Shown here piece by piece: positions 31,728 to 64,000 of a stretch of 64,000 nt of DNA (positions are counted from its first letter, which is position 1; every line of letters starts with the position of its first letter). Under the pieces are notes generated by a model. The model was not told the origin of the DNA. It searched no databases and was given only the letters and a program-made list of their open reading frames with translations. The position numbers were made by a program, and so were the translations under genes. This stretch comes from Sipunculus nudus (taxonomy: Eukaryota; Annelida; Sipuncula; Golfingiida; Sipunculidae). The stretch is taken from NCBI GenBank assembly GCA_026874595.1, contig CM049317.1, positions 16,663,382 to 16,727,381 on the forward strand, in the 5' to 3' direction.

Positions 31728-32279
31728 TTAAGCTAGAGGCTCCATCTCTGGTTGTGCTCCTGTCGTACTACTTTCTCCATGTGATGCACCTGACTTATGA
31801 TTATGTGCTCTAGTTTGTTCTGCAAATGATACCAATTACATTACCATTTCATCATGGTTGATATGCAATTTCTGGAATAATAATAATTTATTTGATACAT
31901 CACAGTTTCTAAACATTTACACAAGTTAATGCGAAAACAGTTAATATTTTATCTGTATTCATCAGTCCCCTTAATATTACTAATAATTACTAAATATTAC
32001 TAATATATTAATACATCCGTAATTTATAAAACAAAACATTACAACTAGAATATGGACATTCACATCTGCACTGTAATAACCAAAAAAAGCATAAAATCTA
32101 TGATATGTCATATGTTGTTTATGTACTGAATCGCAGAAGAAAAAGAATTTATTTTGAGGAAGCAGAAATTACCAAGAGAATATAATTTTCAAAATCAGAT
32201 CAAATAAACGTTACCTATTTGTTGAGGATTATTAATTGGTCTCAAGCAAGGAGACAATCTTCTAAAATGCAAGGACAAG

Positions 32280-32363
<84 letters not shown>

Positions 32364-33384
32364 CGAAGAGTAGACTAATAGTTCATTTAATTATCTTCTG
32401 AAATTGACGTTACCTGTTTGTCCAGACTTATTTGTTGGATTTACGCAAGAAGATAATCTTCTAAAATGTAAGCACAAGAAATATTTGAACAGAAAACCAA
32501 TAATTCAATTACCGAATGGAGGAGTTAAGTAGTTATTGATATTGTTACTAGAATGCAAATGATCATTTTTTTCTGTTCTTCGAGGTTTGAGTTGACGTCA
32601 TTTTACAATACAAATACATATTACCGTTATGCTCATGTAAGTATATACCATATCTTAAAAACACGCCATTATTCTTAAAATATTGACAGATGCTCATAAG
32701 CATATTAGGAAGAGTGGCTGGTTACACACGTGTTATAAATAACTAGTTGAGTAACAAAATACATAATTCAAATTTACTTTAACTCTTGGGAAACCAATAC
32801 TTTGCATTGTCATAACAAACTATGATACTTACGCCATGCATTCTTTAAGAACTTTCTGTACATCTGCACCTTTCTTGTAAAATACTACGATGAATAGTAG
32901 AGACGTTAACAACAAGGTGACGATTACTGCACACGCTATGTTGCCCCCTCCTGAATTTCATGAAAACGCATTTTAAAAAAGGAAAATATAAGACAGACAT
33001 TTGAAAAAACACTTTAGTATGATATAGAATGATTAACCTTAAAAATACCATGTTAAATTATAAATGTTTTCAAATATTTTCTTACCTACGATACATGGTT
33101 CCACCAAGCAAAACAATAAGGTTAAACGCTTTGTGATAATGCTAGGAAAAGGCCTACAAATATGTCATCACTTTACTGGTAACCAAGACATCCTCATGGT
33201 TATATTTTGTGGTTTTACTCTGGTTTTAATTCAGTTAACATGATCCTGTTACCTGTGGTCTTATCCCTGTGATTTTTCGTTGTGGAATTCAACGATGTGG
33301 TCATTCCTTCAGGTGGCATCACGGAGCTGCCACCTAGTGTTGAAATAGTGAAGGATTCAGTCTCTGTACCTTCACAGAACAAAT
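31728..33384 (-). CDS. Single-pass membrane protein, C-terminal exons (partial)
   Basis: Minus-strand exons: 33384-33253 (5' boundary tentative), 32950-32833, one of 32460-32414 or 32261-32215, and 31819-31728 with TAA. The first encodes a Ser/Thr/Pro-rich stalk (TETESFTISTLGGSSVMPPE, then NST as a glycosylation site). The second starts GGGN and holds the transmembrane helix IACAVIVTLLLTSLLFIVVF followed by YKKGADVQKVLKECM, the basic stop-transfer side facing the cytosol. The 47-nt alternative exon adds 15 cytosolic residues plus its two boundary codons. The last exon adds a 29-residue tail (QTRAHNHKSGASHGESS onward, ending PEMEPLA). All internal donors are GTAAGT or GTAACG. The layout is that of a type I surface receptor or mucin-like protein. 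The ectodomain exons, which would name the family, were not found upstream. Confidence 0.7.
32215..32460 (-). other. Tandem mutually exclusive 47-nt exon pair
   Basis: The exons 32460-32414 (RLSSCVNPTNKSGQT) and 32261-32215 (RLSPCLRPINNPQQI) are both exactly 47 nt, take two bases from the exon before and give one base to the exon after. They share the acceptor context CATTTTAG|AAGATT and donor G|GTAACGT. Because 47 is not a multiple of three, using both gives EDCLLA and a stop, and skipping both gives an immediate stop (ATN then TAG). Only one-at-a-time use reaches the conserved tail. They are separated by about 150 bp containing a (TA)n tract. Confidence 0.7.
32283..32362. repeat. (TA)n microsatellite between the alternative exons
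   Basis: A TA run of about 80 bp with two single-base interruptions, filling most of the intron between the alternative exons. Confidence 0.95.
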
Positions 33385-46659: not shown

Positions 46660-49600
46660 CTGTAGTACCCTACAAAAAATTGGGAGGGGATAAAATTTAT
46701 AGAAGCATCGCATTAATGTTAAGGTTGCCGGCAAGGGGAGTGAAATGAGAGCGGCCAGCCACTGGGGCCCCATGAATCGCACACGCAAATAGCAGCTATT
46801 TGCGACCCAAAAAATTTAGGAGGGGGTAAAATTTCTGGTAGCATCGGCTTGAGAGTTAAGATTGCCGCCAGGGGGAGTGGACATGAGTGCGGGCAGACAG
46901 AGGGGCCCTCATGAATCGCACGCGCAAATAGCAGCTATTTGCTACCCTAAAAAATTGAGGAGGGGGTAAAATTTCTGGTAGCATCGCATTGAGAGTTAAG
47001 ATTGCCGCCAGAGGGAGTGGACAAGAGACAGGACTGCCACATGGGCTCTATGAATCGCACGCGCAAATAGCAGCTATTTGCTACCCTAAAAATTAGGAGG
47101 AAGTAAAATAATAGTAGCAGCGCATGGAGTGTTAAGACTGCCACCAGGGGGAGTGGAGATCTCAAAGCCTGCCACAGCGGCCCAATGAATTGCACGCGCA
47201 AATAGCAGCTATTTGCTACCATAAAAGTTGTGAAGACTGCCGCCAGGGGGAGAGGAGATCTCAGCGGCCTGGCAGAGGGGTCCCCACGAGTCGCAAGCGC
47301 AAATAGCAGCTATTTGCTACCACAAAATATGTCAAGACCGCCACCAGGGGGTGTGGACATGAGAGTGGACAGACAGAGGGGCCCCCATAATCGCACGCGC
47401 AAATAGCAGCTATTTGCTACCCTAAAAAATTAGGAGGGGGTAAAATTTATAGTAGCATTGCATTGAGCGTTATGACTGCCGCCAGGGGGAGTGGACATGA
47501 GTGCGGGCAGGCAGAGGGGCCCCCATGAATCGCACGCGCAAATAGCTGCTATTTGCTACCCTAAAAAATTTAGGAGGGGTTCAATATATAGTAGCATCGC
47601 ATTGAGTGTTAAGACTGCCGCCAGGGGGAGTGTACATGAGAGCGGGCAGACAGAGGGGCCCCAAGAATCGCAAGCGCAAATAGCAGCTATTTGCGACCCT
47701 AAAAAAATTAGGAGGGGTAAATTTCTGGTAGCATCGCATTGAGAGTTATGATTGCCGCCAGGGGGAGTTGACTAGAGACAGGACTACCACAGGGGCCCCA
47801 TGATGCGCACGCGCAAATAGCAGCTATTTGCTACCCTAAAAAATTTAAGAAGGGTTAAATATATAGTAGCATCGCATTGAGTGTTAAGACTGCCGCCAGG
47901 GGGAGTGTACATGAGAGCGGGCAGACAGAAGGGCCCCATGAATCGCACGCGCAAATAGCAGCTATTTGCTACCCTAAAAAAATTAGGATGGTGTAAAATT
48001 TCTGGTAGCATCGCATTGAGAGTTAAGATTGCCGCAAGGGGGAGTGGACTAGAGACAGGACTGCCACAGGGGCCCCATGAATCGCACGCGCAAATAGCTG
48101 CTATTTGCTACCCTAAAAAATTTAGGAGGGGTTCAATATATAGTAGCATCGCATTGAGTGTTTAGACTGCCGCCAGGGGGAGTGTACATGAGATCGGGCA
48201 GACGGAGGGGCCCCATGAATCGCAAGCGCAAATAGCAGCTATTTGCGACCCTAAAAAATTTAGGAGGGTGTAAAATTTCTGGGAGCATCGCATTGAGAGT
48301 TAGGTTTGCCGCCAGGGGGAGTGGACCTCAGTGCCGCCAGGGGGAGTGGACTAGAGACAGGACTACCACAGGGGCCCCATGAATCGCACGCGCAAATAGC
48401 AGCTATTTGCTACCTTAAAAAATTTAGGAGGGGTTAAATATGTAGTAGGATCGCATTGAGTGTTAAGACTGCCGCCAGGGGGAGTGTACATGAGAGCGGG
48501 CAGACAGAAGGGCCCCATAAATCGCACGCGCAAATAGCAGCTATTTGCTACCCTAAAAAATTAGGAGGGAGTAAAATAATAGTAGCAGCGCATGGAGTGT
48601 TAAGACAGCCACCAGGGGCAGTGGAGATCTCAAAGCCTGCCACAGGGGCCCAATGAATCGCACGCGCAAAGAGCAGCTATTTGCTACCATAAAAGTTGTG
48701 AAGACTGCCGCTAGGGGGAGAAGAGATCTCAGCGGCCTGGCAGAGGGGTCACCACGAGTCGCAAGCGCAAATAGCAGCTATTTGCTACCATAAAATATGT
48801 CAAGACTGCCACCAGGGGGAGTGGACTAGAGACAGGACTGCCACAGGGGCCCCATGAGTCGCACGCCCAAATAGCAGTTATTTGCGACCCTAAAAAATTT
48901 AGGAGGGGGTAAAATTTCTGGTAGCATTGCATTGAGGGTTAAGATTGCCGCCAGGGGGAGTGGATATGAGTGCGGGCAGACAGAGGGGCCCCCATGAATC
49001 GCACGCGCAAGTAGCAGCTATTTGCTACCCTAAAAAATTAGGACGAGGTAAAATTTTTAGTTGCATCGCATTGAGTTTTAAGACTGCCGCCAGGGGGAGC
49101 GGACATGAGACTGGACAGACAGAGGGGCCCCCATGAGTCTCAAGCGCAAATAGCAGCTACTTGCTACCATAAAAAGTGTCAAAACTGCCGCCAGGAGGAG
49201 TGGACGCAGAGAGGGCTGCCAGAGAGTGCCCCATGAATCGCACGCGCAAATAGCAGCTATTTGCTACCTTAAAATGTGAGAAGACTGCCGCCAGGGGGAG
49301 TGGTTATGAGAGTGGCCTGACGCGGAGGCCTCCATGAGTCGCAAGCGCAAATAGCAGCTATTTGCTACCTTAAAAGTGTCAAGACTGCCGCCAGGGGGAG
49401 TAGATATCAGAGCGGGCTGCCAGAGGCCGAGGGGGCCCCATGAATCGCACGCGCAAATAGCAGCTATTTGCTACCTTAAAATGTGCCAAGACTGCCGCCA
49501 GGGGGAGTGGTTATGAGAGTGGCCTGACAGAGAGTCCCCCATGAGTCGCAAGCGCAAATAGCAGCTATTTGCTACCTTAAAAGTGTCAAGACTGCCGCCA

Positions 49601-52600
49601 GGAGGAGTAGATATCAGATCGGGCTGCCAGAGGCCGAGGGGGGCCCATAATTTAAACGCGCAAATAGCAGCTATTTGCTACCTTGAAACATACCAAGACT
49701 GCCGCCAGGGGGAGTGGTTATGAGAGCGGCCTGACAGAGAGGCCCCCATGAGTCGCAAGCGCAAATAGCAGCTATTTGCTACCATAAAAGTGTCAAGACT
49801 GCCGCCAGGGGGAGTAGATATCAGAGCGGGATGCCAGAGGCCGAAGGGGCCCCATGAATCGCACGCGCAAATAGCAGCTATTTGCTACCTTTAAAGGTGC
49901 CAAGACTGCCGCCAGGGGGAGTGGTTATGAGAGCGGCCTGACAGGGTGGCCCCCATGAGTTACAAGCGCAAATAGCAGCTATTTGCTTCCATAAAAGTGT
50001 CAAGACTGCCAACAGGGGGAGTAGATATCAGAGCGGGCTGCCAGAAGCCGAGGGGGCCCCATGAATCGCACGCGCAAATAGCAGCTATTTGCTACCTTAA
50101 AATGTGCCAAGACTGTCGCCAGGGGGAGTGGTAATGAGAGTGGCCTGACAGGGAGGCCCCCATGAGTCGCCAGCGCAAATAGCAGCTATTTGCTACCATA
50201 AAATGTGTTAAGACTGCCGACAGGGGGAGTAGATATCAGAGCGGGCTGCCAGAAGCCAAGGGGGCCGCATGAATCGCAAGCGCAAATAGCAGCTTTTTGC
50301 TACCTTAAAATGTGCCAAGACTGCCGCCAGGGGGAGTGGTTATGAGAGTGGCCTGACAGGGAGGGCCCCATGAGTCGCAAGCGCAAATAGCAGCTATTTG
50401 CTACCATAAAATGTGTTAAGACTGCCGCCAGGGGGAGTAGAAATCAGAGCGGGCTGCCAGAGGCCGAGGGGGCCCCATAATTAAAACGCGCAAATAGCAG
50501 CTATTTGCTACCTGTAAGGTGCCTAGACTGCCGCCAGGGGGAGTGGTTATGAGAGCGGCATGACAGAGAGGCCCCCATGAGTCGCAAGGGCAAATAGCAG
50601 CCATTTGCTACCATAAAAGTGTCAAGCCTGCCGCCACGGGGAGTAGATATCAGAGCGGGCTGCCAGAGGCCGAAGGGGCCCCATGAATCGCACGCGCAAA
50701 TAGCAGCTATTTGCTACCTTAAAATGTGCCAAGACTGCCGCCAGGGGGAGTAGAAATCAGAGCGGGCTGCCAGAGGCCGGGGGGCCCCATAATTATAACG
50801 CGCAAATAGCAGCTATTTGCTACCTTTAAACGTGCCAAGACTGCCGCCAGGGGGAGTGGTTATGAGAGCGGCCTGACAGAGAGGCTCCCATGAGTCGCAA
50901 GCGCAAATAGCAGCTATTTGCTACCATAAAAGTGTCAAGACTGCCGCCAGGGGGAGTGGATATGAGAGCGGCCAGACAAAGAGGACCCCATGAGTCGCAA
51001 GCGCAAATAGCAGCTATTTGCTACCTTAAAAGTTGTCAAGACTGCCGCCAGGGGGGGTGGACAAAGAGCGGGCTGCCAGAAGGGCCCCCATGAATCGCAC
51101 GCGCAAATAGCAGCTATTTGCTACCTTAAAAGTTGCCAAGACTGCCGCCAGGGGGAGTTGATATGAGAGCGGCCAGCGAAGAGGCCCTCATGAATCGCAA
51201 GCGCAAATAGCAGCTATTTGCTACCTTAAAAGTTGCCAAGACTGCCGCCAGGGGGAGGGGATATGACAGCGGCCAGACAGAGAGGCCCCCATGAGTGGCA
51301 AGCGCAAATAGCACCTATTTGCTACCTTAAAAGTTGTCAAGACTGCCGCCAGGGGGAGTGGACACAGAGCGGGTTGCCAGAGTGGGCTCCACGAATCGCA
51401 CGCGCAAATAGCAGCTATTTGCTACCTTAACAGTTGCCAAGACTGCCGCCATGGGGAGTGGACAGAGAGCGGCCAGACAGATAGGCCCCCATGAGTCGCA
51501 AGCGCAAATAGCAGCTATTTGCTACCTTAAAAGTTGTCAAGACTGCCGCCAGGGGGAGTGGACAGAGCCGGCTGCCAGAGGGGCCCCAATGAATCGCACG
51601 CGCAAATAGCAGCTATTTGCTACCTTAAAAGTTGCCAAGACTGCTGGCAGAGGGAGTTGATATGAGAGCGGCCAGCGAAGAGGCCCCCATGAATCGCAAG
51701 CGCAAATAGCAGCTATTTGCTACCTTAAAAGTTGCCAAGACTGCCGCCAGGGGGAGTGGAAATGAGTACAGCCTGACAGAGAGGCCCCCATGAGTCGCAA
51801 GCGCAAATAGCAGCTATTTGCTACCATAAAAAGTGTCAAGACTGCCGCCAGGAGGAGTGGACACAGAGCGGGCGGCCAGAGGAGGCCCCATGAATCGCAA
51901 GCGCAAATAGCAGCTATTTGCTACCTTAAAAGTTGCTAAGACTGCCGCCAGGGGGAGTAGATATGACAGCGGCCAGACAGAGAGGCCCCCATGAGTCGCA
52001 AGCGCAAATAGCAGCTATTTGCTACCTTAAAAGTTGTCAAGACTGCCGCCAGGTGGAGTGGACACAGAGCGGGCTGCCAGAGGGGCCCCCATGAATCGCA
52101 CGCGCAAATAGCAGCTATTTGCTACCTCAGAAAATTGTCAAGACTGCCGCCAGGGGGAGTTGATATGAGAGCGGCCAGCGAAGAGGCCCCCATGAGTCGC
52201 AAGCGCAAATAGCAGCTATTTGCTACCTTAAAAGTTGTCAAGACTGCCGCCAGGTGGAGTGGACACAGAGCGGGCTGCCAGAAGGGCCCCCATGAATCGC
52301 ACGCGCAAATAGCAGCTATTTGCTACCTTAAAAGTTGCCAAGACTGCCGCCAGGGGGAGTTGATATGAGAGCGGCCAGCGAAGAGGCCCTCATGAATCGC
52401 AAGCGCAAATAGCAGCTATTTGCTACCTTAAAAGTTGCCAAGACTGCCGCCAGGGGGAGGGGATATGACAGCGGCCAGACAGAGAGGCCCCCATGAGTGG
52501 CAAGCGCAAATAGCACCTATTTGCTACCTTAAAAGTTGTCAAGACTGCCGCCAGGGGGAGTGGACACAGAGCGGGTTGCCAGAGTGGGCTCCACGAATCG

Positions 52601-54885
52601 CACGCGCAAATAGCAGCTATTTGCTACCTTAACAGTTGCCAAGACTGCCGCCATGGGGAGTGGACAGAGAGCGGCCAGACAGATAGGCCCCCATGAGTCG
52701 CAAGCGCAAATAGCAGCTATTTGCTACCTTAAAAGTTGTCAAGACTGCCGCCAGGGGGAGTGGACAGAGCCGGCTGCCAGAGGGGCCCCAATGAATCGCA
52801 CGCGCAAATAGCAGCTATTTGCTACCTTAAAAGTTGCCAAGACTGCTGGCAGAGGGAGTTGATATGAGAGCGGCCAGCGAAGAGGCCCCCATGAATCGCA
52901 AGCGCAAATAGCAGCTATTTGCTACCTTAAAAGTTGCCAAGACTGCCGCCAGGGGGAGTGGAAATGAGTACAGCCTGACAGAGAGGCCCCCATGAGTCGC
53001 AAGCGCAAATAGCAGCTATTTGCTACCATAAAAAGTGTCAAGACTGCCGCCAGGAGGAGTGGACACAGAGCGGGCGGCCAGAGGAGGCCCCATGAATCGC
53101 AAGCGCAAATAGCAGCTATTTGCTACCTTAAAAGTTGCTAAGACTGCCGCCAGGGGGAGTAGATATGACAGCGGCCAGACAGAGAGGCCCCCATGAGTCG
53201 CAAGCGCAAATAGCAGCTATTTGCTACCTTAAAAGTTGTCAAGACTGCCGCCAGGTGGAGTGGACACAGAGCGGGCTGCCAGAGGGGCCCCCATGAATCG
53301 CACGCGCAAATAGCAGCTATTTGCTACCTCAGAAAATTGTCAAGACTGCCGCCAGGGGGAGTTGATATGAGAGCGGCCAGCGAAGAGGCCCCCATGAATC
53401 GCAAGCGCAAATAGCAGCTATTTGCTACCTTAAAAGTTGCCAAGACTGCCGCCAGGGGGAGTTGATATTAGAGCGGCCAGCGAAGAGGCCCCCATGAATC
53501 GCAAGCGCAAATAGCAGCTATTTGCTACCTTAACAGTTGCCAAGACTGCCGCCAGGGGGAGTGGAAATGAGAACAGCCTGACAGAGAGGCCCCCATGAGT
53601 CGCACGCGCAAATAGCAGCTATTTGCTACCATAAAAAGTGTCAAGACTGCCGCCAGGAGGGGTGGACACAGAGCGGGCGGCCAGAGTAGGCCCCATGAAT
53701 CGCAAGCGCAAATAGCAGCTATTTGCTACCTTAAAACGTGTCAAGACTGCCGCCAGGGGGAGTGGATATGAGAGCGGCCAGACAGAGAGGCCCCCATGAG
53801 TCGCAAGCGCAAATAGCAGCTATTTGCTACCTTAAAAGTTGTCAAGACTGCCGCCAGGAGGAGTGGACAAAGAGCGGGCTGCCAGAGGGGCTCCCATGAA
53901 TCGCACGCGCAAATAGCAGCTATTTGCTACCTTAAAAGTTGCCAAGACTGCCGCCAGGGGGAGTTGATATGAGAGCGGCCAGCGAAGAGGCCCCCATGAA
54001 TCGCAAGCGCAAATAGCAGCTATTTCCTACCTTAAAAGTTGCCAAGACTGCCGCCAGGGGGAGTGGATATGACAGCGGCCAGACAGAGAGGCCCCCATGA
54101 GTCGCAAGCGCAAATAGCAGCTATTTGCTACCTTAAAAGTTGTCAAGACTGCCGCCAGGGGGGGTGGACACAGAGGGGGTTGCCAGAGGGGGCCCCACGA
54201 ATCGCACGCGCAAATAGCAGCTATTTGCTACCTTAACAGTTGCCAAGACTGCCGCCAGGGGGAGTGGTCAGAGAGCGGCCATACAGAGAGGCCCCCATGA
54301 GTCGCAAGCGCAAATAGCAGCTATTTGCTACCTTAAAAGTTGTCAAGACTGCCGCCAGGGGGAGTGGACAGAGGCGGCTGCCAGAGGGGCCCCCATGAAT
54401 GGCACGCGTAAATAGCAGCTATTTGCTACCTTAAAAGTTGCCAAGACTGCCGCCAGGGGGAGTTGATATGAGAGCGGCCAGCGAAGAGGCCCCCATGAAT
54501 CGCAAGCGCAAATAGCAGCTATTTCCTACCTTAAAAGTTGCCAAGACTGCCGCCAGGGGGAGTGGATATGACAGCGGCCAGAGGGGGCCCCATGAATCGC
54601 ACGCGCAAATAGCAGCTATTTGCTACCTTAACAGTTGCCAAGACTGCCGCCAGGGGGAGTGGAAATGAGAACAGCCTGACAGAGAGGCCCCCATGAGTCG
54701 CAAGCGCAAATAGCAGCTATTTGCTACCATAAAAAGTGTCAAGACTGCCGCCAGGAGGAGTGGACACAGAGCGGGCGGCCAGAGGAGGCCCCATGAATCG
54801 CAAGCGCAAATAGCAGCTATTTGCTACCTTAAAAGTTGCTAAGACTGCCGCTAGGGGGAGTAGATATGACAGCGGCCAGACAGAG
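46660..54885. repeat. GC-rich satellite array with CTCF-like core
   Basis: About 8.2 kb of tandem monomers, roughly 70-75 by counting the landmark GCAAATAGCAGCTATTTGC, a near-perfect palindrome. From 46.66 to 49.1 kb most monomers are about 135-140 bp, with an extra TTAGGAGGGGGTAAAATTT-AGCATCGCATTGAG segment. From 49.1 kb onward they are about 100-107 bp and tend to alternate between an ATCGCACGCGCAAATAG and an AGTCGCAAGCGCAAATAG form, giving a dimer near 210 bp. Each carries AAGACTGCCGCCAGGGGGAG. Every open frame in the region is a translation of the repeat. Confidence 0.95.
51069..53390. repeat. 1,202-bp higher-order duplication inside the satellite
   Basis: The segment from about 51069 to 52190 recurs at an offset of 1,202 bp with no difference that I could find until GAGTCGC versus GAATCGC near 52195/53397. 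It covers about eleven monomers, including a distinctive one with CTGCTGGCAGAGGGAG. Confidence 0.85.
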
Positions 54886-56585
54886 AACTCCTTGACAGGT
54901 GTCATTGGCTGAGCTGATGAGTCATCTCGGGTACAGTCGTGATCCTTTGTGCTTCAAATGTGCAACTGCCCGTCCATCAAACAGGCACATTTTAAACCGT
55001 TGGACCTTCAAATCTGAAATTAGGTATACAGTTAGATTTTCCCAAAATCTACTAGCATACCATAATTCGGTTACTCTGACTTTCTTCCTTTTAGATATTA
55101 AGGAAACCCCTCCGTTTTCCATTGAGAACCCATTGTTACGCCTCAAGACTGCCTAAAATCAGAACCACTGTTGTGAGGTTGATCGTAGATAAATGGATAT
55201 TGCTTCATAAATTTCCTATGAACACACAAAAACAGGGTCAGTATTGCATATAAGTTGAAGATATGGGCTGAAGAAATGCACCTTTAATAAATCCAAAAGT
55301 ATATTTTCCCACTGAACCAAAAAATTGCTGAGGGTAGAGACTGTTGTAATCAGGGATAAACTACAATGAATCAAGATTGAATTGTAAATGAGGTATGAAT
55401 ATTTAAAATAATAAATTATTCATATAAATATAAAATTATATTTAAACCACAAATTTACCCAAATGTGGTCATGGCCCGTTTTTCGCTGTAAGCACAGTAA
55501 ATTTAATAGCATATCATGCACACGTAAGGTTGTCAGCTACTACTTTGTAAAAAAGGAAAGGAATTCACCATAAATTGTAGCTTTTATTACAGTTGTAATG
55601 AGACCTTGTCACACCAAGGCTATACTGAAGGCAATGTGTATATCCCCTTATGGACCTTTCAGGCTAATTATGCTTGCTTGAAGCATGGCCTCAATACAGC
55701 CAGGCAGCTCTCGTGTGGTTCCAGCTGGACCTATCTGTCCACCCCCTGCAGTAGTAGTAATTGTGGCCAGAAATGTCGAATTAAACAAATGATTAAAAAT
55801 AATTGTTTTAAAATAAAGAGTCTAAGAAATATGAATGGAAAGAAATTTTAATTTAATAAATATCCAGGTCTGAACCGGGTGTTTAATTTGTTGATTAATA
55901 TTTATTACAAAATTTAAAAGAAAATATAAAAATATGTGCAAAATATAAAATTGTACTCTGACAAGTGCTAATTGAAGATGCGAATATGTTTGACCAATGG
56001 AATTAAGCCTCCTGTCTGTAGCAGATGGTACATGATACTGGCTAAAAAATCAGAATGTATATTACTGGTTCCTTAACGTTGACTTCAATTAATAAAATTA
56101 AACAATGCCAACTCAAGTTTCCTCCTTGTATAATTGCTCCCTGTTTTGATCATTAGGTTATTTTTAACACCTGTATTAGTTACATAGCTGGATTACTTTT
56201 TTGGCCTGATACGTGTTAAAAAATGGAAAGTTATGCAAATAACATAAAATAAAGAAAGCAGATGTGTTCTCATTATAATGTGTATAATGTTAAAAATTGT
56301 CATAAGTGTCGTGCTATGTTTAGATTATGGACAGTGGTGTGACAGTATTCATAAGTGAACACACATTTTTTTTTAATGACAGCCTTAAAACAGGGTACTT
56401 ATGATCATTAATAAAAATAGTGAAATTGGTATAGCCGAAAAGATCCACAATATCGTAGGACTGAAACTGAAGAAAAAAAAAGAGCAATTAGTAAAGACTG
56501 TATAATTGTATTTGATTATGAATAAAAAAAACAATATTTTAAGTATGAAAATAAATACAAACACAAATACAAGGAAAAAGATATG
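54886..56585. other. Unique-looking spacer between the two satellites
   Basis: AT-rich, with two GC-richer islets (54890-55160 and 55600-55760) whose frames (85 and 81 codons) show no motif, signal peptide or splice logic. Nothing else supported. Confidence 0.4.
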
Positions 56586-57344: not shown

Positions 57345-60300
57345 TCAAGTAAGTGTTTGTCAGTTTTAATATATGCTATATCCGGTATACGGGTTACCCT
57401 AACCCTTCGGGCATGAAATACTCCAGTTAAGTCTTTGTCACTATTGATATATGCTATTTGCCGGGTTACGGGTTACCCAAACCCTTTGGGAATAAAATAC
57501 TCTTGTAAGTGTTTGTCATTATTAATATATGCTGTATCCGGGATGCGGGTTACCCTAACCCTTCGGGCATGAAATACTCCAGTATGTGTGTGTCACTATT
57601 AATATATGCTATATCCGTGATACGGGTTACGCCAACCCTTCGGGCATGAAATACTCAAGTAAGTGTTTGTCAGTTTTAATAAAGGCTATATCCGGTATAC
57701 GGGTTACCCTAACCCTTCGGACATGAAATACTCCAGTAAGTGTTTGCCACTATTATGTATGCTATATCAGGGATACGGGTAACCCTGACCCTTCGGGCAT
57801 GAAATACTCCTGTAAGTATTTGTCACTATTAATATACGCTATATCCAGGATACGGGTTAACGTGACCCATCGGGTATGAAATGCTCCAGTAAGTGTTTGT
57901 GACTATTCATGTATGCTATATGCAGTAAACGAGTCTACGTTACCCAGCGGGTATGTAATACTCCAGTTAGTGTTTGTGACTATTCATATATGCTATATCC
58001 GTGACACAGGTTACGGTAACCCACGCGGCGTGAAAAGCTCGAATGTTTGTCACTATTAATATATGCTGTATCCAGGATAAGGGTTACCCTAACCCCTCGG
58101 GCATGAAATACTCCTGTAAGTATTTGTCACTATTAATATACGCTTTATGCAGTAAACGGGTCTACGTTACCCAGCGGGTGTGAAATACTCCAGTTAGTGT
58201 TTGTGACTATTCATATATGCTATATCCGTGACACAGGTTACCGTAACCCACGCGGCGTGAAAAGCTGGAATGTTTGTCGCTATTAATATATGCTATATCC
58301 GGGATACGGGTTACACTAAATCTCGGGCAAGAAATACTCCTGTAAGTGTTTGTCACTATTAATATATGCTATATCCAGGATACGGGTTACCCTAACCCTT
58401 CGGGCATGAAATACTCCTGTAAGTGTTTGTCACTATCAATATATGCTATATCCGGGATAGGGGTTACCCTAACCCTTCGGGCATGAAATACTCCAGTAAG
58501 TGTTTGTCACTATTGATATATGCTATATCCGGGTTACGGGTTACCCAAACCCTTTGGGAATAAAATACTCTTGTAAGTGTTTGTCATTATTAATATATGC
58601 TGTATCCGGGATGCGGGTTACCCTAACCCTTCGTGCATGAAATACTCCAGTAAGTGTGTGTCACTATTAATATATGCTATATCCAGGATACGGGTTACCC
58701 TAACCTTTCAGGCATGAAATACTCCAGTAATTGTTTGTAATTATTGATACGTGCTATACCCTTGATACGGGTTTTATGCTATATCGGGGATACGGGTTAC
58801 CCTAACGATTCGGGCATGAATTACCCCAGAAGATGTTTGCCATTATTAATATGTGCTATATCCGGGATACGGTTTACCCTAACCCTTCGGGCATGAAATA
58901 ATCCAGTAAGCTGTTGTCCCTATTGATATTTGCTATATCCGGGATACGGGTTACCCTAACCCTTCGGGCATGAAATAATCCAGTAAGTTGTTGTCCCTAC
59001 TGATATATGCTGTATCCGGGATGCGGGTTACCCTAACCCTTTGGGCATGAAATACTCCTGTAAGTGTGTGTCACTATTAATATATGCTATATCCAGGATA
59101 CGGGTTACCCTAAACCCTTCGAGCATGAAATACTCCCGTAAGTGTTTGTCACTATCAATATATGCTATATCCGGGATAGGGGTTACCCTAACCCTTCTGG
59201 CATGAAATACTACAGTAAGTGTTTGTCACTATTGATTTATGCTATATCCGGGATACGGGTTACCCAAACCCTTCGGGAATAATATACTCCTGTGTTTGTT
59301 ATATTAATATATGCTATATCCGGGATACGGGTTACCTTAACCCTCCGGGCATGAAATACTCCAGTAAATATTTGTCATTATTAATACGTGCTTTATCCGG
59401 GATACGGGTCACCCTCACCCTTCGGGCATGAAATACTCTAGTAATTGTTTGTCATTATTGATACGTGCTATACCCGGGATACGGGTTACCCTAACCCTTC
59501 GGGCATGAAATAATCAAGTAATTTTTTGTCCCTATTGATTTATACTATATCGGGGATACGGGTTACCCTAACGCTTCGGGCATGAAATACCGCAGTATCG
59601 ATGTTTGCCATTATAAATATGTGCTATATCCGGGATACGGGTTACCCTAACCCTTCGGGCATGAAATAATCCCCTAGGTTGTTGTCCATATTGATATGTG
59701 CTATATCCGGGATACGGGTTACCCTAACCCTTCGGCATGAAATAATCCAGTAAGTTGTTTTCCCTATTGATATATGCTGTATCCGTGATGCGGGTTACCC
59801 TAACCCTTCGGGCATGAAATACTCCTGTGTGTGTCACTATTAATATATGCTATATCCAGGATACGGGTTTCCCTAACCCTTCAGGCATGAAATACTCCCG
59901 TAAGGTTTTGTCACTATCAATATATGTTATATCCGGGATAGGGGTTACCCTAACCCTTCCGGCATGAAATACTCCAGTAAGTGTTTGTCACTATAGATAT
60001 ATGCTTTATCCGGTATACGGGTTACCCAAACCCTTCGGGAATAAAATACTCCAACAAGTGTTTGTAACTATTCATATATGCTATATCCGGGATACGGGTT
60101 TCCTTAACCCTTCGGGCATGATATACTCCAGTAGATGTTTGTCATTATTAATATGTGCTATATCCGGGTTACGGGTTACCCAAACCCTTTGGGAATAAAA
60201 TACTCTTGTTAGTGTTTGTCATTATTAATATATGCTGTATCCGGGATGCGGGTTACCCTAACCCTTCGGGCATGAAATACTCCAGTAAGTGTGTGTCACT

Positions 60301-60655
60301 ATTAATATATGCTATATCCAGGATACGGGTTACCCTAACCCTTCGTGCATGAAATACTCCAGTAATTGTTTGTCATTATTGATACGGGCTATACCCGGGA
60401 TACGGGTTTTATGCTATATCGGGGATACGGGTTACCCTAACGCTTCGGGCATGAATTACCCCAGTAGATGTTTGCCATTATTAATATGTGCTATATCCGG
60501 GATACGGGTTACCCTAACCCTTCGGGCATGAAATAATCCAGTAAGTTGTTGTCCCTATTGATATTTGCTATATCCGGGATACGGGTTACCCTAACCCTTC
60601 GGGCATGAAATAATCCAGTAAGTTGTTGTCCCTACTGATATATGCTGTATCCGGG
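57345..60655. repeat. ~76-bp satellite with telomere-like core
   Basis: About 43 monomers built on TGTTTGTCACTATTAATATA, GCTATATCCGGGATACGGG and TTACCCTAACCCTTCGGGCA, then TGAAATACTCCAGTAAG. The invariant core TTACCCTAACCC equals two telomeric repeats in C-strand form. The monomer has 1-bp-modulus frames, which explains the YPNPSGMKYSS-type open frames as artefacts. Confidence 0.95.
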
Positions 60656-61770
60656 ATAAAACCTTGAAATGATTAAAATGGACTGTTCAGAATGAAGATT
60701 TCAGAAGTGGCAGCAACGCGCCGGTCAAATTAAATCACGTGATTTGTGGCAAAAACCCCACGTGGTTGTTGAGGCGAGATGCCCACTGGACGTGTTACCC
60801 CCTTTAAAAGCAATAATAAGTGGGGAGTTTGATTTTTTGCCAAAAATAAATTGTATTTTAAATTGAAACGAGGATGTACATATATAATGCCAAATCTGGG
60901 TTCACTTGATATTCGAATGCAATATAAATTGTGGTGAATATTAGGCCTATTTGTCAGATATATTGCTGATTTATTATGTTATACTTTGATATGATATACC
61001 TGCATATACATATATATATAGATATTAATATATAAATTCATATAAATAAATATATATGTATATATATAGATAAAAATATATATATATATAAATATATATA
61101 TAAACTAATAAATATACATGTATATATATACCCCAAACATATTATATATATATATATTTATATAGTGTAACCTGTGCAATAAGAGCGCCTGTGAATTAAG
61201 ACCACTTCTGGCCAGACCCGTGGATAGTCTTATAATATATATATATATACAATATATAATGTGGTGGGAGAGAGATTTATTAAATGCTCTCTCGCTTTTT
61301 AGGATGGCTCAGACGTATACTTTGAAATCCACGCGAGGTGTCTATGGGCAGGATGCATTACGAATGGCTGTTAAAGCTGTTGCCGAAGGAGTAAGTGAAA
61401 AGGTGTCCCCCAGAGACTTCGGCGTCTCCCGAAACACTAAAAAGTGCTTAGCAGCGTCCAGCTTAGATTCTGAGAAGGAATGTATTTGGATTTGCCAGTC
61501 ACCTGATGCTCAGCCTTGGTTTTTATCTAATTAAAGGGGGCTATAATCACCTATAAAGCATGTTGAATATGCACGAAAAATAGCGTCTTCTCTTTGAAAT
61601 CAATTGGTACCTGCCAAAATATTGGCCTAAAAGTGTTGGCTTACTAGAGTGGACCTAGCGCGATCACTAGCAGGCGCCAGCCTAAACATAGCGAGAGGGC
61701 CCCCGTGTATCGCCCGGGCCACAATACCTGTCAATCAGGAGATGCCCTGAGTGACACTGGAAAAAAATTA
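60656..61770. repeat. Non-satellite segment embedded in the array
   Basis: The array breaks off mid-monomer after TCCGGGATA. What follows is a unique segment with a CACGTG/CACGTGG-containing stretch, a TA-rich region (61010-61255) and then an exon-like frame. The satellite resumes at about 61771. The same break and sequence recur at 63126. Confidence 0.85.
61304..61534 (+). CDS. psq-type helix-turn-helix, transposase N-terminal fragment
   Basis: ATG at 61304, directly after a CTCTCGCTTTTTAG acceptor-like site, opens a 76-residue frame. MAQTYTLKSTRGVYGQDALR, then MAVKAVAEG and FGVSRNT, has the spacing of the psq/CENP-B-type helix-turn-helix that begins pogo/Tigger/jerky transposases (basic start, a Tyr-Gly or Tyr-x step, an Ala-rich helix, then a FGV-S/P-R-x-T recognition turn). 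After Lys-Lys the reading loses similarity (CLAASSLDSEKECIW) and stops at 61532, and no DDE domain follows, so this is a fragment. Inside the nucleus the domain would bind DNA. It could be a domesticated exon or transposon debris carried by the satellite. Confidence 0.5.
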   Translation: MAQTYTLKSTRGVYGQDALRMAVKAVAEGVSEKVSPRDFGVSRNTKKCLAASSLDSEKECIWICQSPDAQPWFLSN

Positions 61771-63125
61771 GTGGATGTTTGTCATTATAAATATGTGCTA
61801 TATCCGGGATACGGGTAACCCTAACCCTTCGGGCATGAAGTACCCCAGTAATTGTTTGCCATTATTAATATGTGCTATACCCTAACCCTTCGAGCATGAA
61901 ATACTCCAGTAAGTGTTTGTGACTATTCATATATGCTATATCCGGGATACGGGTTACCCTAACCCTTCGGGCATGAAATAATCAAGTAATTTTTTGTCCC
62001 TATTGATTTATACTATATCGGGGATACGGGTTACCCTAACGCTTCGGGCATGAAATACCGCAGTATCGATGTTTGCCATTATAAATATGTGCTATATCCG
62101 GGATACGGGTTACCCTAACCCTTCGGGCATGAAATAATCCCCTAGGTTGTTGTCCATATTGATATGTGCTATATCCGGGATACGGGTTACCCTAACCCTT
62201 CGGCATGAAATAATCCAGTAAGTTGTTTTCCCTATTGATATATGCTGTATCCGTGATGCGGGTTACCCTAACCCTTCGGGCATGAAATACTCCTGTGTGT
62301 GTCACTATTAATATATGCTATATCCAGGATACGGGTTTCCCTAACCCTTCAGGCATGAAATACTCCCGTAAGGTTTTGTCACTATCAATATATGTTATAT
62401 CCGGGATAGGGGTTACCCTAACCCTTCCGGCATGAAATACTCCAGTAAGTGTTTGTCACTATAGATATATGCTTTATCCGGTATACGGGTTACCCAAACC
62501 CTTCGGGAATAAAATACTCCAACAAGTGTTTGTAACTATTCATATATGCTATATCCGGGATACGGGTTTCCTTAACCCTTCGGGCATGATATACTCCAGT
62601 AGATGTTTGTCATTATTAATATGTGCTATATCCGGGTTACGGGTTACCCAAACCCTTTGGGAATAAAATACTCTTGTTAGTGTTTGTCATTATTAATATA
62701 TGCTGTATCCGGGATGCGGGTTACCCTAACCCTTCGGGCATGAAATACTCCAGTAAGTGTGTGTCACTATTAATATATGCTATATCCAGGATACGGGTTA
62801 CCCTAACCCTTCGTGCATGAAATACTCCAGTAATTGTTTGTCATTATTGATACGGGCTATACCCGGGATACGGGTTTTATGCTATATCGGGGATACGGGT
62901 TACCCTAACGCTTCGGGCATGAATTACCCCAGTAGATGTTTGCCATTATTAATATGTGCTATATCCGGGATACGGGTTACCCTAACCCTTCGGGCATGAA
63001 ATAATCCAGTAAGTTGTTGTCCCTATTGATATTTGCTATATCCGGGATACGGGTTACCCTAACCCTTCGGGCATGAAATAATCCAGTAAGTTGTTGTCCC
63101 TACTGATATATGCTGTATCCGGGAT
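61771..63125. repeat. ~76-bp satellite, second block
   Basis: The same monomer as at 57345-60655. From about 61942 it is base-for-base the same as 59474 onward at an offset of 2,468 bp. Confidence 0.95.
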
Positions 63126-64000
63126 AAAACCTTGAAATGATTAAAATGGACTGTTCAGAATGAAGATTTCAGAAGTGGCAGCAACGCGCCGGTCAAATTA
63201 AATCACGTGATTTGTGGCAAAAACCCCACGTGGTTGTTGAGGCGAGATGCCCACTGGACGTGTTACCCCCTTTAAAAGCAATAATAAGTGGGGAGTTTGA
63301 TTTTTTGCCAAAAATAAATTGTATTTTAAATTGAAACGAGGATGTACATATATAATGCCAAATCTGGGTTCACTTGATATTCGAATGCAATATAAATTGT
63401 GGTGAATATTAGGCCTATTTGTCAGATATATTGCTGATTTATTATGTTATACTTTGATATGATATACCTGCATATACATATATATATAGATATTAATATA
63501 TAAATTCATATAAATAAATATATATGTATATATATAAATAAAAATATATATATATATATAAATATATATATAAACTAATAAATATACATGTATATATATA
63601 CCCCAAACATATTATATATATATATATTTATATAGTGTAACCTGTGCAATAAGAGCGCCTGTGAATTAAGACCACTTCTGGCCAGACCCGTGGATAGTCT
63701 TATAATATATATATATATACAATATATAATGTGGTGGGAGAGAGATTTATTAAATGCTCTCTCGCTTTTTAGGATGGCTCAGACGTATACTTTGAAATCC
63801 ACGCGAGGTGTCTATGGGCAGGATGCATTACGAATGGCTGTTAAAGCTGTTGCCGAAGGAGTAAGTGAAAAGGTGGCCCCCAGAGACTTCGGCGTCTCCC
63901 GAAACACTAAAAAGTGCTTAGCAGCGTCCAGCTTAGATTCTGAGAAGGAATGTATTTGGATTTGCCAGTCACCTGATGCTCAGCCTTGGTTTTTATCTAA
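63126..64000. repeat. Second copy of the embedded segment (cut by window end)
   Basis: Repeats 60658-61530 with a 2-bp TA insertion near 63555 and isolated substitutions. It continues past the window. Confidence 0.9.
63774..64000 (+). CDS. psq-type helix-turn-helix fragment, second copy (partial)
   Basis: The same frame as at 61304, one residue different (Ser to Ala where GTGTCCCCC became GTGGCCCCC, after SEKV). It is cut by the right edge just before the expected stop. Conservation of the frame across the duplicate is uninformative because the copies are almost identical. Confidence 0.45.
   Translation, partial: MAQTYTLKSTRGVYGQDALRMAVKAVAEGVSEKVAPRDFGVSRNTKKCLAASSLDSEKECIWICQSPDAQPWFLS

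Follow-up and report, generated by a model that had tools for sequence, protein, structure and literature searches.

Tandem-duplicated 47-nt exons in the predicted cytosolic tail of a putative single-pass cell-surface protein of Sipunculus nudus

The locus lies on contig 12 of the 1.43-Gb, 153-contig genome of Sipunculus nudus, within a stretch of 64,000 nucleotides that was analysed as a whole and is called the window here. Its minus strand carries a short series of exons separated by GT-AG introns, in which two alternative tail exons, A and B, are placed between a transmembrane exon and the last coding exon:

33369-33253, minus strand: Ser/Thr-rich stalk exon, predicted extracellular, with an open frame and splice sites, TETESFTISTLGGSSVMPPEGMTTSLNSTTKNHRDKTT, phase 1 in and 1 out
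32950-32833, minus strand: transmembrane exon, GGNIACAVIVTLLLTSLLFIVVFYKKGADVQKVLKECMA, phase 1 in and 2 out
32460-32414, minus strand: alternative tail exon A, 47 nt, RLSSCVNPTNKSGQT, phase 2 in and 1 out
32262-32413, minus strand: intron between A and B, 152 nt, with a long hairpin predicted for its AT tract (32283-32363)
32261-32215, minus strand: alternative tail exon B, 47 nt, RLSPCLRPINNPQQI, phase 2 in and 1 out
31819-31728, minus strand: last coding exon, common to the A and B forms, EQTRAHNHKSGASHGESSTTGAQPEMEPLA, with the stop codon

Exons A and B are products of a tandem duplication. They share 34 of 47 nucleotides and 7 of 15 residues, are equal in length (47 and 47 nt, a non-triplet number) and in phase (2 in, 1 out), as the preliminary description of this DNA had stated, and both are AG/GT-edged with open frames and all four splice dinucleotides intact. 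The same description placed the intron edges within the duplicated unit, and 28 of the 32 edge bases are indeed identical (18/20 before the acceptor and 10/12 after the donor); farther into the introns, identity falls to 15/40 and 12/28. Local alignment of exon A and its edges with the interval downstream of A gives a score of 46, as high as none of 5,000 dinucleotide-preserving shuffles (mean 10.8, maximum 20). Exon A stripped of its edges scores 21, again higher than all 5,000 shuffles (maximum 19). The similarity of A and B is more than chance.

No third copy stood out on either strand of the window, where the best other scores were 13-17. A genome-wide DNA search with the exon pair, which passes over simple repeats and very common words, yielded the locus and one opposite-strand match, to the AT tract of the locus. 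The corresponding protein search returned seven rows: four are the stalk, transmembrane, A and last exons of this locus, and the other three, elsewhere in the genome, are at chance level (E 2.8-5.4). Because the best candidates alone were scored in both searches, the claim is limited to the statement that no second copy of these exons, the stalk exon included, and no paralogous tails were found in the 1.43-Gb genome.

Translation reproduces the frame logic originally proposed, in which either exon leads to the same tail and both or neither lead to an early stop. Exon A alone and exon B alone are each followed by the same 30-residue end, terminating in EQTRAHNHKSGASHGESSTTGAQPEMEPLA, to give two tails, each about 60 residues long, with 8 of the 15 swapped positions different. 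When A and B are joined, the frame stops within B (after TEDCLLA), and when both are skipped, it stops within the last listed exon (after MATN).

Tandem-duplicated alternative exons are a well-known kind of arrangement; what is new is the gene, together with the place of the exons in its tail, and no published report on the gene was recognised among the open-access papers surveyed. To predict mutually exclusive exons (MXEs), Pillmann et al. 2011 (PMC3228551) require that neighbouring exons be similar in length, homologous and in the same frame, and that their splice sites be compatible. A and B show all of these features, and their 15 complete codons equal the default minimum of 15 amino acids used there. 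They resemble the MXEs detected by WebScipio and those of humans in being adjacent, homologous, equal in length and phase and compatible in their splice sites, and in having a non-triplet length such that using both or neither shifts the frame. They are described here as a predicted mutually exclusive pair arising from tandem exon duplication. Their setting differs from that of human MXEs: 87% of human MXE-encoded regions were reported to be embedded in secondary structure (PMC5740500), and the A/B region is probably an unstructured tail.

The locus is probably the 3′ end of a gene for a single-pass cell-surface protein whose tail exon was duplicated in tandem and whose copies are used one at a time. 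The exon that follows the transmembrane exon would have been duplicated together with short intron edges. Splicing to A or to B would keep the frame and yield one of the two long tails, and skipping or double use would shift it and yield a truncated tail. Both copies would be in use, singly, depending on the cell or the condition. Alternatively, A and B could obey a cassette logic, each being included or skipped independently, so that splicing would set both the length and the sequence of four tails, two long and two short. This is an unlikely reading, as the combination of equal length, frame and homology is typical of exclusive pairs; it is found in 0.56% (90/16,180) of the non-exclusive exons of the Drosophila X chromosome (Pillmann et al. 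2011, PMC3228551).

The positions of the early stops bear directly on this choice. With both exons joined, the stop ends 27 nt before the junction of B with the last exon; with neither, it falls in the last listed exon. Under the classical 50-nt rule, decay needs the distance from the stop to the last junction to exceed about 50 nt; in invertebrates, decay may be governed by other rules. Stops at 27 nt and in the last listed exon are not placed as decay-enforced exclusivity would have them. The classical rule predicts instead that both off-frame products escape decay, if no further 3′ untranslated exon follows. Exclusivity is consequently not enforced by the early stops themselves: frame logic alone does not force one-at-a-time use, and would yield truncated, short-tailed receptors. 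This predicted escape favours the cassette logic. Non-triplet MXE clusters are common in human: 377 clusters (60%) contain exons of such a length, and 83 of these (22%) still show joining reads (Hatje et al. 2017, PMC5740500).

How exclusivity could otherwise be set was approached through the intron between the two exons and through RNA structure. In Hatje et al. 2017 (PMC5740500), 5 human MXE clusters are assigned to a U2/U12 mismatch and 57 to a short distance between donor and branch point. Steric hindrance calls for a donor of A less than 50 nt from the branch point of B, to be set against an intron of 152 nt of which 81 nt are an AT tract predicted to fold on itself. At this length the intron presents no obvious obstacle to splicing, which again accords with cassette logic. 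Compared with 100 shuffles, the A-B region folds better than all (z -4.86); this fold was dismissed as evidence, as its long stem is the AT tract, and a fold of all 1,071 nt of the interval, made without a shuffle control, was set aside. A scan for docking and selector pairing that covered the two introns upstream and downstream of the pair (30-nt windows in steps of 10, on one sequence) found pairing that was matched or bettered in 176 of 200 shuffles for the upstream intron and in 130 of 200 for the downstream one. Competing structures of the type proposed in PMC6071210, where one arm of an intronic stem is duplicated, do not stand out at exons A and B. That no competing RNA structure was found counts in favour of independent use of the two exons as well. 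The window holds no tRNA and no match to a known RNA family at gathering score. For one-at-a-time use, the intron that is not obviously too short and the competing structure that was not found make regulated competition between splice sites, mediated by protein factors, the most likely means of exclusivity. The AT microsatellite (32283-32363, 81 nt, predicted to form a long hairpin) may, as a guess, differ in length from one individual to another.

Another cell-surface protein with an exclusive cluster of two exons is insect Dscam1, where the alternatives of exon 17 carry the transmembrane region. Unlike that cluster, the locus described here has a constant transmembrane exon, and the tail exon that follows it is the one doubled. 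The insect exon 17 alternatives are highly divergent (PMC3228551). Competing complementary sequences have been reported for Dscam1 exon 17 (PMC6071210), in contrast to A and B, where none were found.

The differences between A and B were compared with random change. The 13 substitutions are spread almost evenly over the three codon positions (4/4/5). When 13 random substitutions were placed in exon A, 58% of the simulated copies stayed open and a mean of 7.4 residues remained identical, as against the 7 of 15 observed; 75% of the open copies reached at least 7. Residue conservation was accordingly ruled out as proof of function, the similarity being what random change would leave, and nothing in the comparison points to protein-level constraint between the copies. 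The data are compatible with selection for two distinct peptides as well as with its absence. With residue identity at this level, R-L-S-x-C and P-x-N are motifs that the duplication alone would be expected to leave in both copies, and they are no evidence of a constrained signalling core. Of the switchable tail segment proposed at the outset, the anatomy is well supported, namely the tail of a membrane protein with two duplicated alternative exons; the constrained core is not supported. A Pfam search of the tail gave no family above cut-off, and its one tyrosine sits at the membrane border with none beyond, so that "signalling" is a guess.

These figures also bear on a further possibility, that a single copy works, its duplicate being unused and under neutral drift, with splice edges intact by chance. 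Amino-acid similarity at the level of random change and substitutions spread over all codon positions are what such drift would produce. The two open frames and the four intact splice dinucleotides speak against it, and are weak support for use, given how often simulated copies stay open. A second objection, that the edges are more alike (28/32) than the sequence beyond them (15/40 and 12/28), is a weak point because edge and exon identity do not differ significantly (Fisher p 0.16). On balance, an unused duplicate is improbable, and alternative use of the two copies is the preferred reading. The exchange would then alter a short, probably unstructured segment of the tail. It could, for example, place a serine in an R-L-S-S or an R-L-S-P context, motif types that different kinases could read.

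Four exons with C-type-lectin similarity lie upstream, on the same strand as the tail exons (coordinates within locus L011):

L011 8741-8517: C-type-lectin exon, phase 1 in and 1 out
L011 7850-7725: C-type-lectin exon, phase 1 in and 1 out
L011 3398-3150: C-type-lectin exon, phase 1 in and 1 out
L011 1918-1769: last C-type-lectin exon, phase 1 in and 1 out

Joined, they encode two Lectin_C domains (Pfam, E 1.2e-10 and 1.5e-08). The second has matches to 11 different PDB sequences with E no higher than 0.001, among them LY75 and MRC2 chains (E 1.5e-06 to 1.3e-05). Phase-1 donors on the lectin exons and a phase-1 acceptor on the stalk exon of the same strand allow the two sets to be joined, so the gene may be a receptor with two lectin domains, and the chance that lectin and tail exons form one gene is put at slightly better than even. 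The matches suggest that the outer part of the protein is lectin-like, and the gene possibly encodes a sugar-binding lectin receptor.

Somewhat short of an even chance is given to the opposite view, in which lectin and tail exons come from separate genes and the lectin exons encode a secreted lectin of two domains; the matter is distinct from exon use, and its odds do not add to those given above. Reading past the donor of the last lectin exon leads to a stop 17 codons beyond the domain, after ICQTSETSHSKIPGLFPTSSP, and a gap of about 42 kb that includes satellites separates this exon from the stalk exon. Weighing against separate genes are the compatible phases on one strand and the outcome of a Pfam scan of the minus strand, which found no other match at cut-off in about 31 of the 42 kb of the gap, outside the satellite stretches at 46.7-54.8 and 57.5-60.4 kb. 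Within the window, the stretches 33.2-43.2, 43.2-46.7 and 54.8-57.5 kb gave nothing and 60.4-64.0 kb gave two sub-threshold matches; L010 gave one sub-threshold match and L011 one besides the lectin domains. On the other side of the tail exons, 21.3-31.3 kb of the window held none at E 0.1 and L012 had no matches, again on the minus strand. Among hydrophobic frames linked to an acceptor in the gap, the transmembrane exon ranks fourth of 26 rows in all, several of the others being low-complexity or satellite sequence by eye. Upstream of the lectin domains, the candidates for a signal-peptide exon include none that is decisive. The last lectin exon (L011 1769-1918) has two possible phase-1 donors, and these, together with its read-through, would allow secreted and membrane forms.

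If the lectin link holds, the protein would share the single-pass layout of receptors of the mannose receptor and DEC-205 (LY75) type, to which its second lectin domain is related by sequence through the LY75 and MRC2 matches. Unlike in those receptors, no more than two lectin domains were found, and a search of the minus strand that covered the window stretches named above, L010, L011 and L012 showed no other domain typical of the mannose receptor family. Should both tail exons be used, a receptor of possible immune type would exchange part of its inner tail by splicing, with its outer part unchanged. The most elaborate version is a four-way tail switch on a lectin receptor, in which A and B would give two long tails and both or neither would give two stable truncated ones. 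This is decidedly improbable; if true, splicing alone would pick between two signalling tails and two short receptors.

Two satellite regions occur in the window. The first (46674-54886) has a unit of about 100 bp, with 57.5 copies at 49080-54886; the second (57348-63126) has a 77 bp unit, with 39.6 copies at 57348-60408 and the same unit again at 61878-62876. The haemocyanin beta-sandwich family, a mollusc marker, had no match in this genome and none in 14 control genomes either, and so says nothing on a molluscan affinity.

Lectin domains of this genome also occur in a different setting. A dispersed element on contig 11 (L045, 577000-586999; copies L046-L049) spans at least 10 kb, and the four other copies compared are 95-98% identical to it over most or all of the 10 kb. 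Of 150 matches listed, about 125 are lectin matches in open frames of at least 250 aa, the size class of the lectin ORFs of this element (a hand count; 25 rows have frames under 170 aa). One strand bears a CARD-domain ORF and three single-frame C-type-lectin ORFs (354, 374 and 435 aa), and the other a 605-aa ORF with MULE transposase and FLYWCH domains. The whole has the look of a large mobile element that carries a load of domains of immune type.
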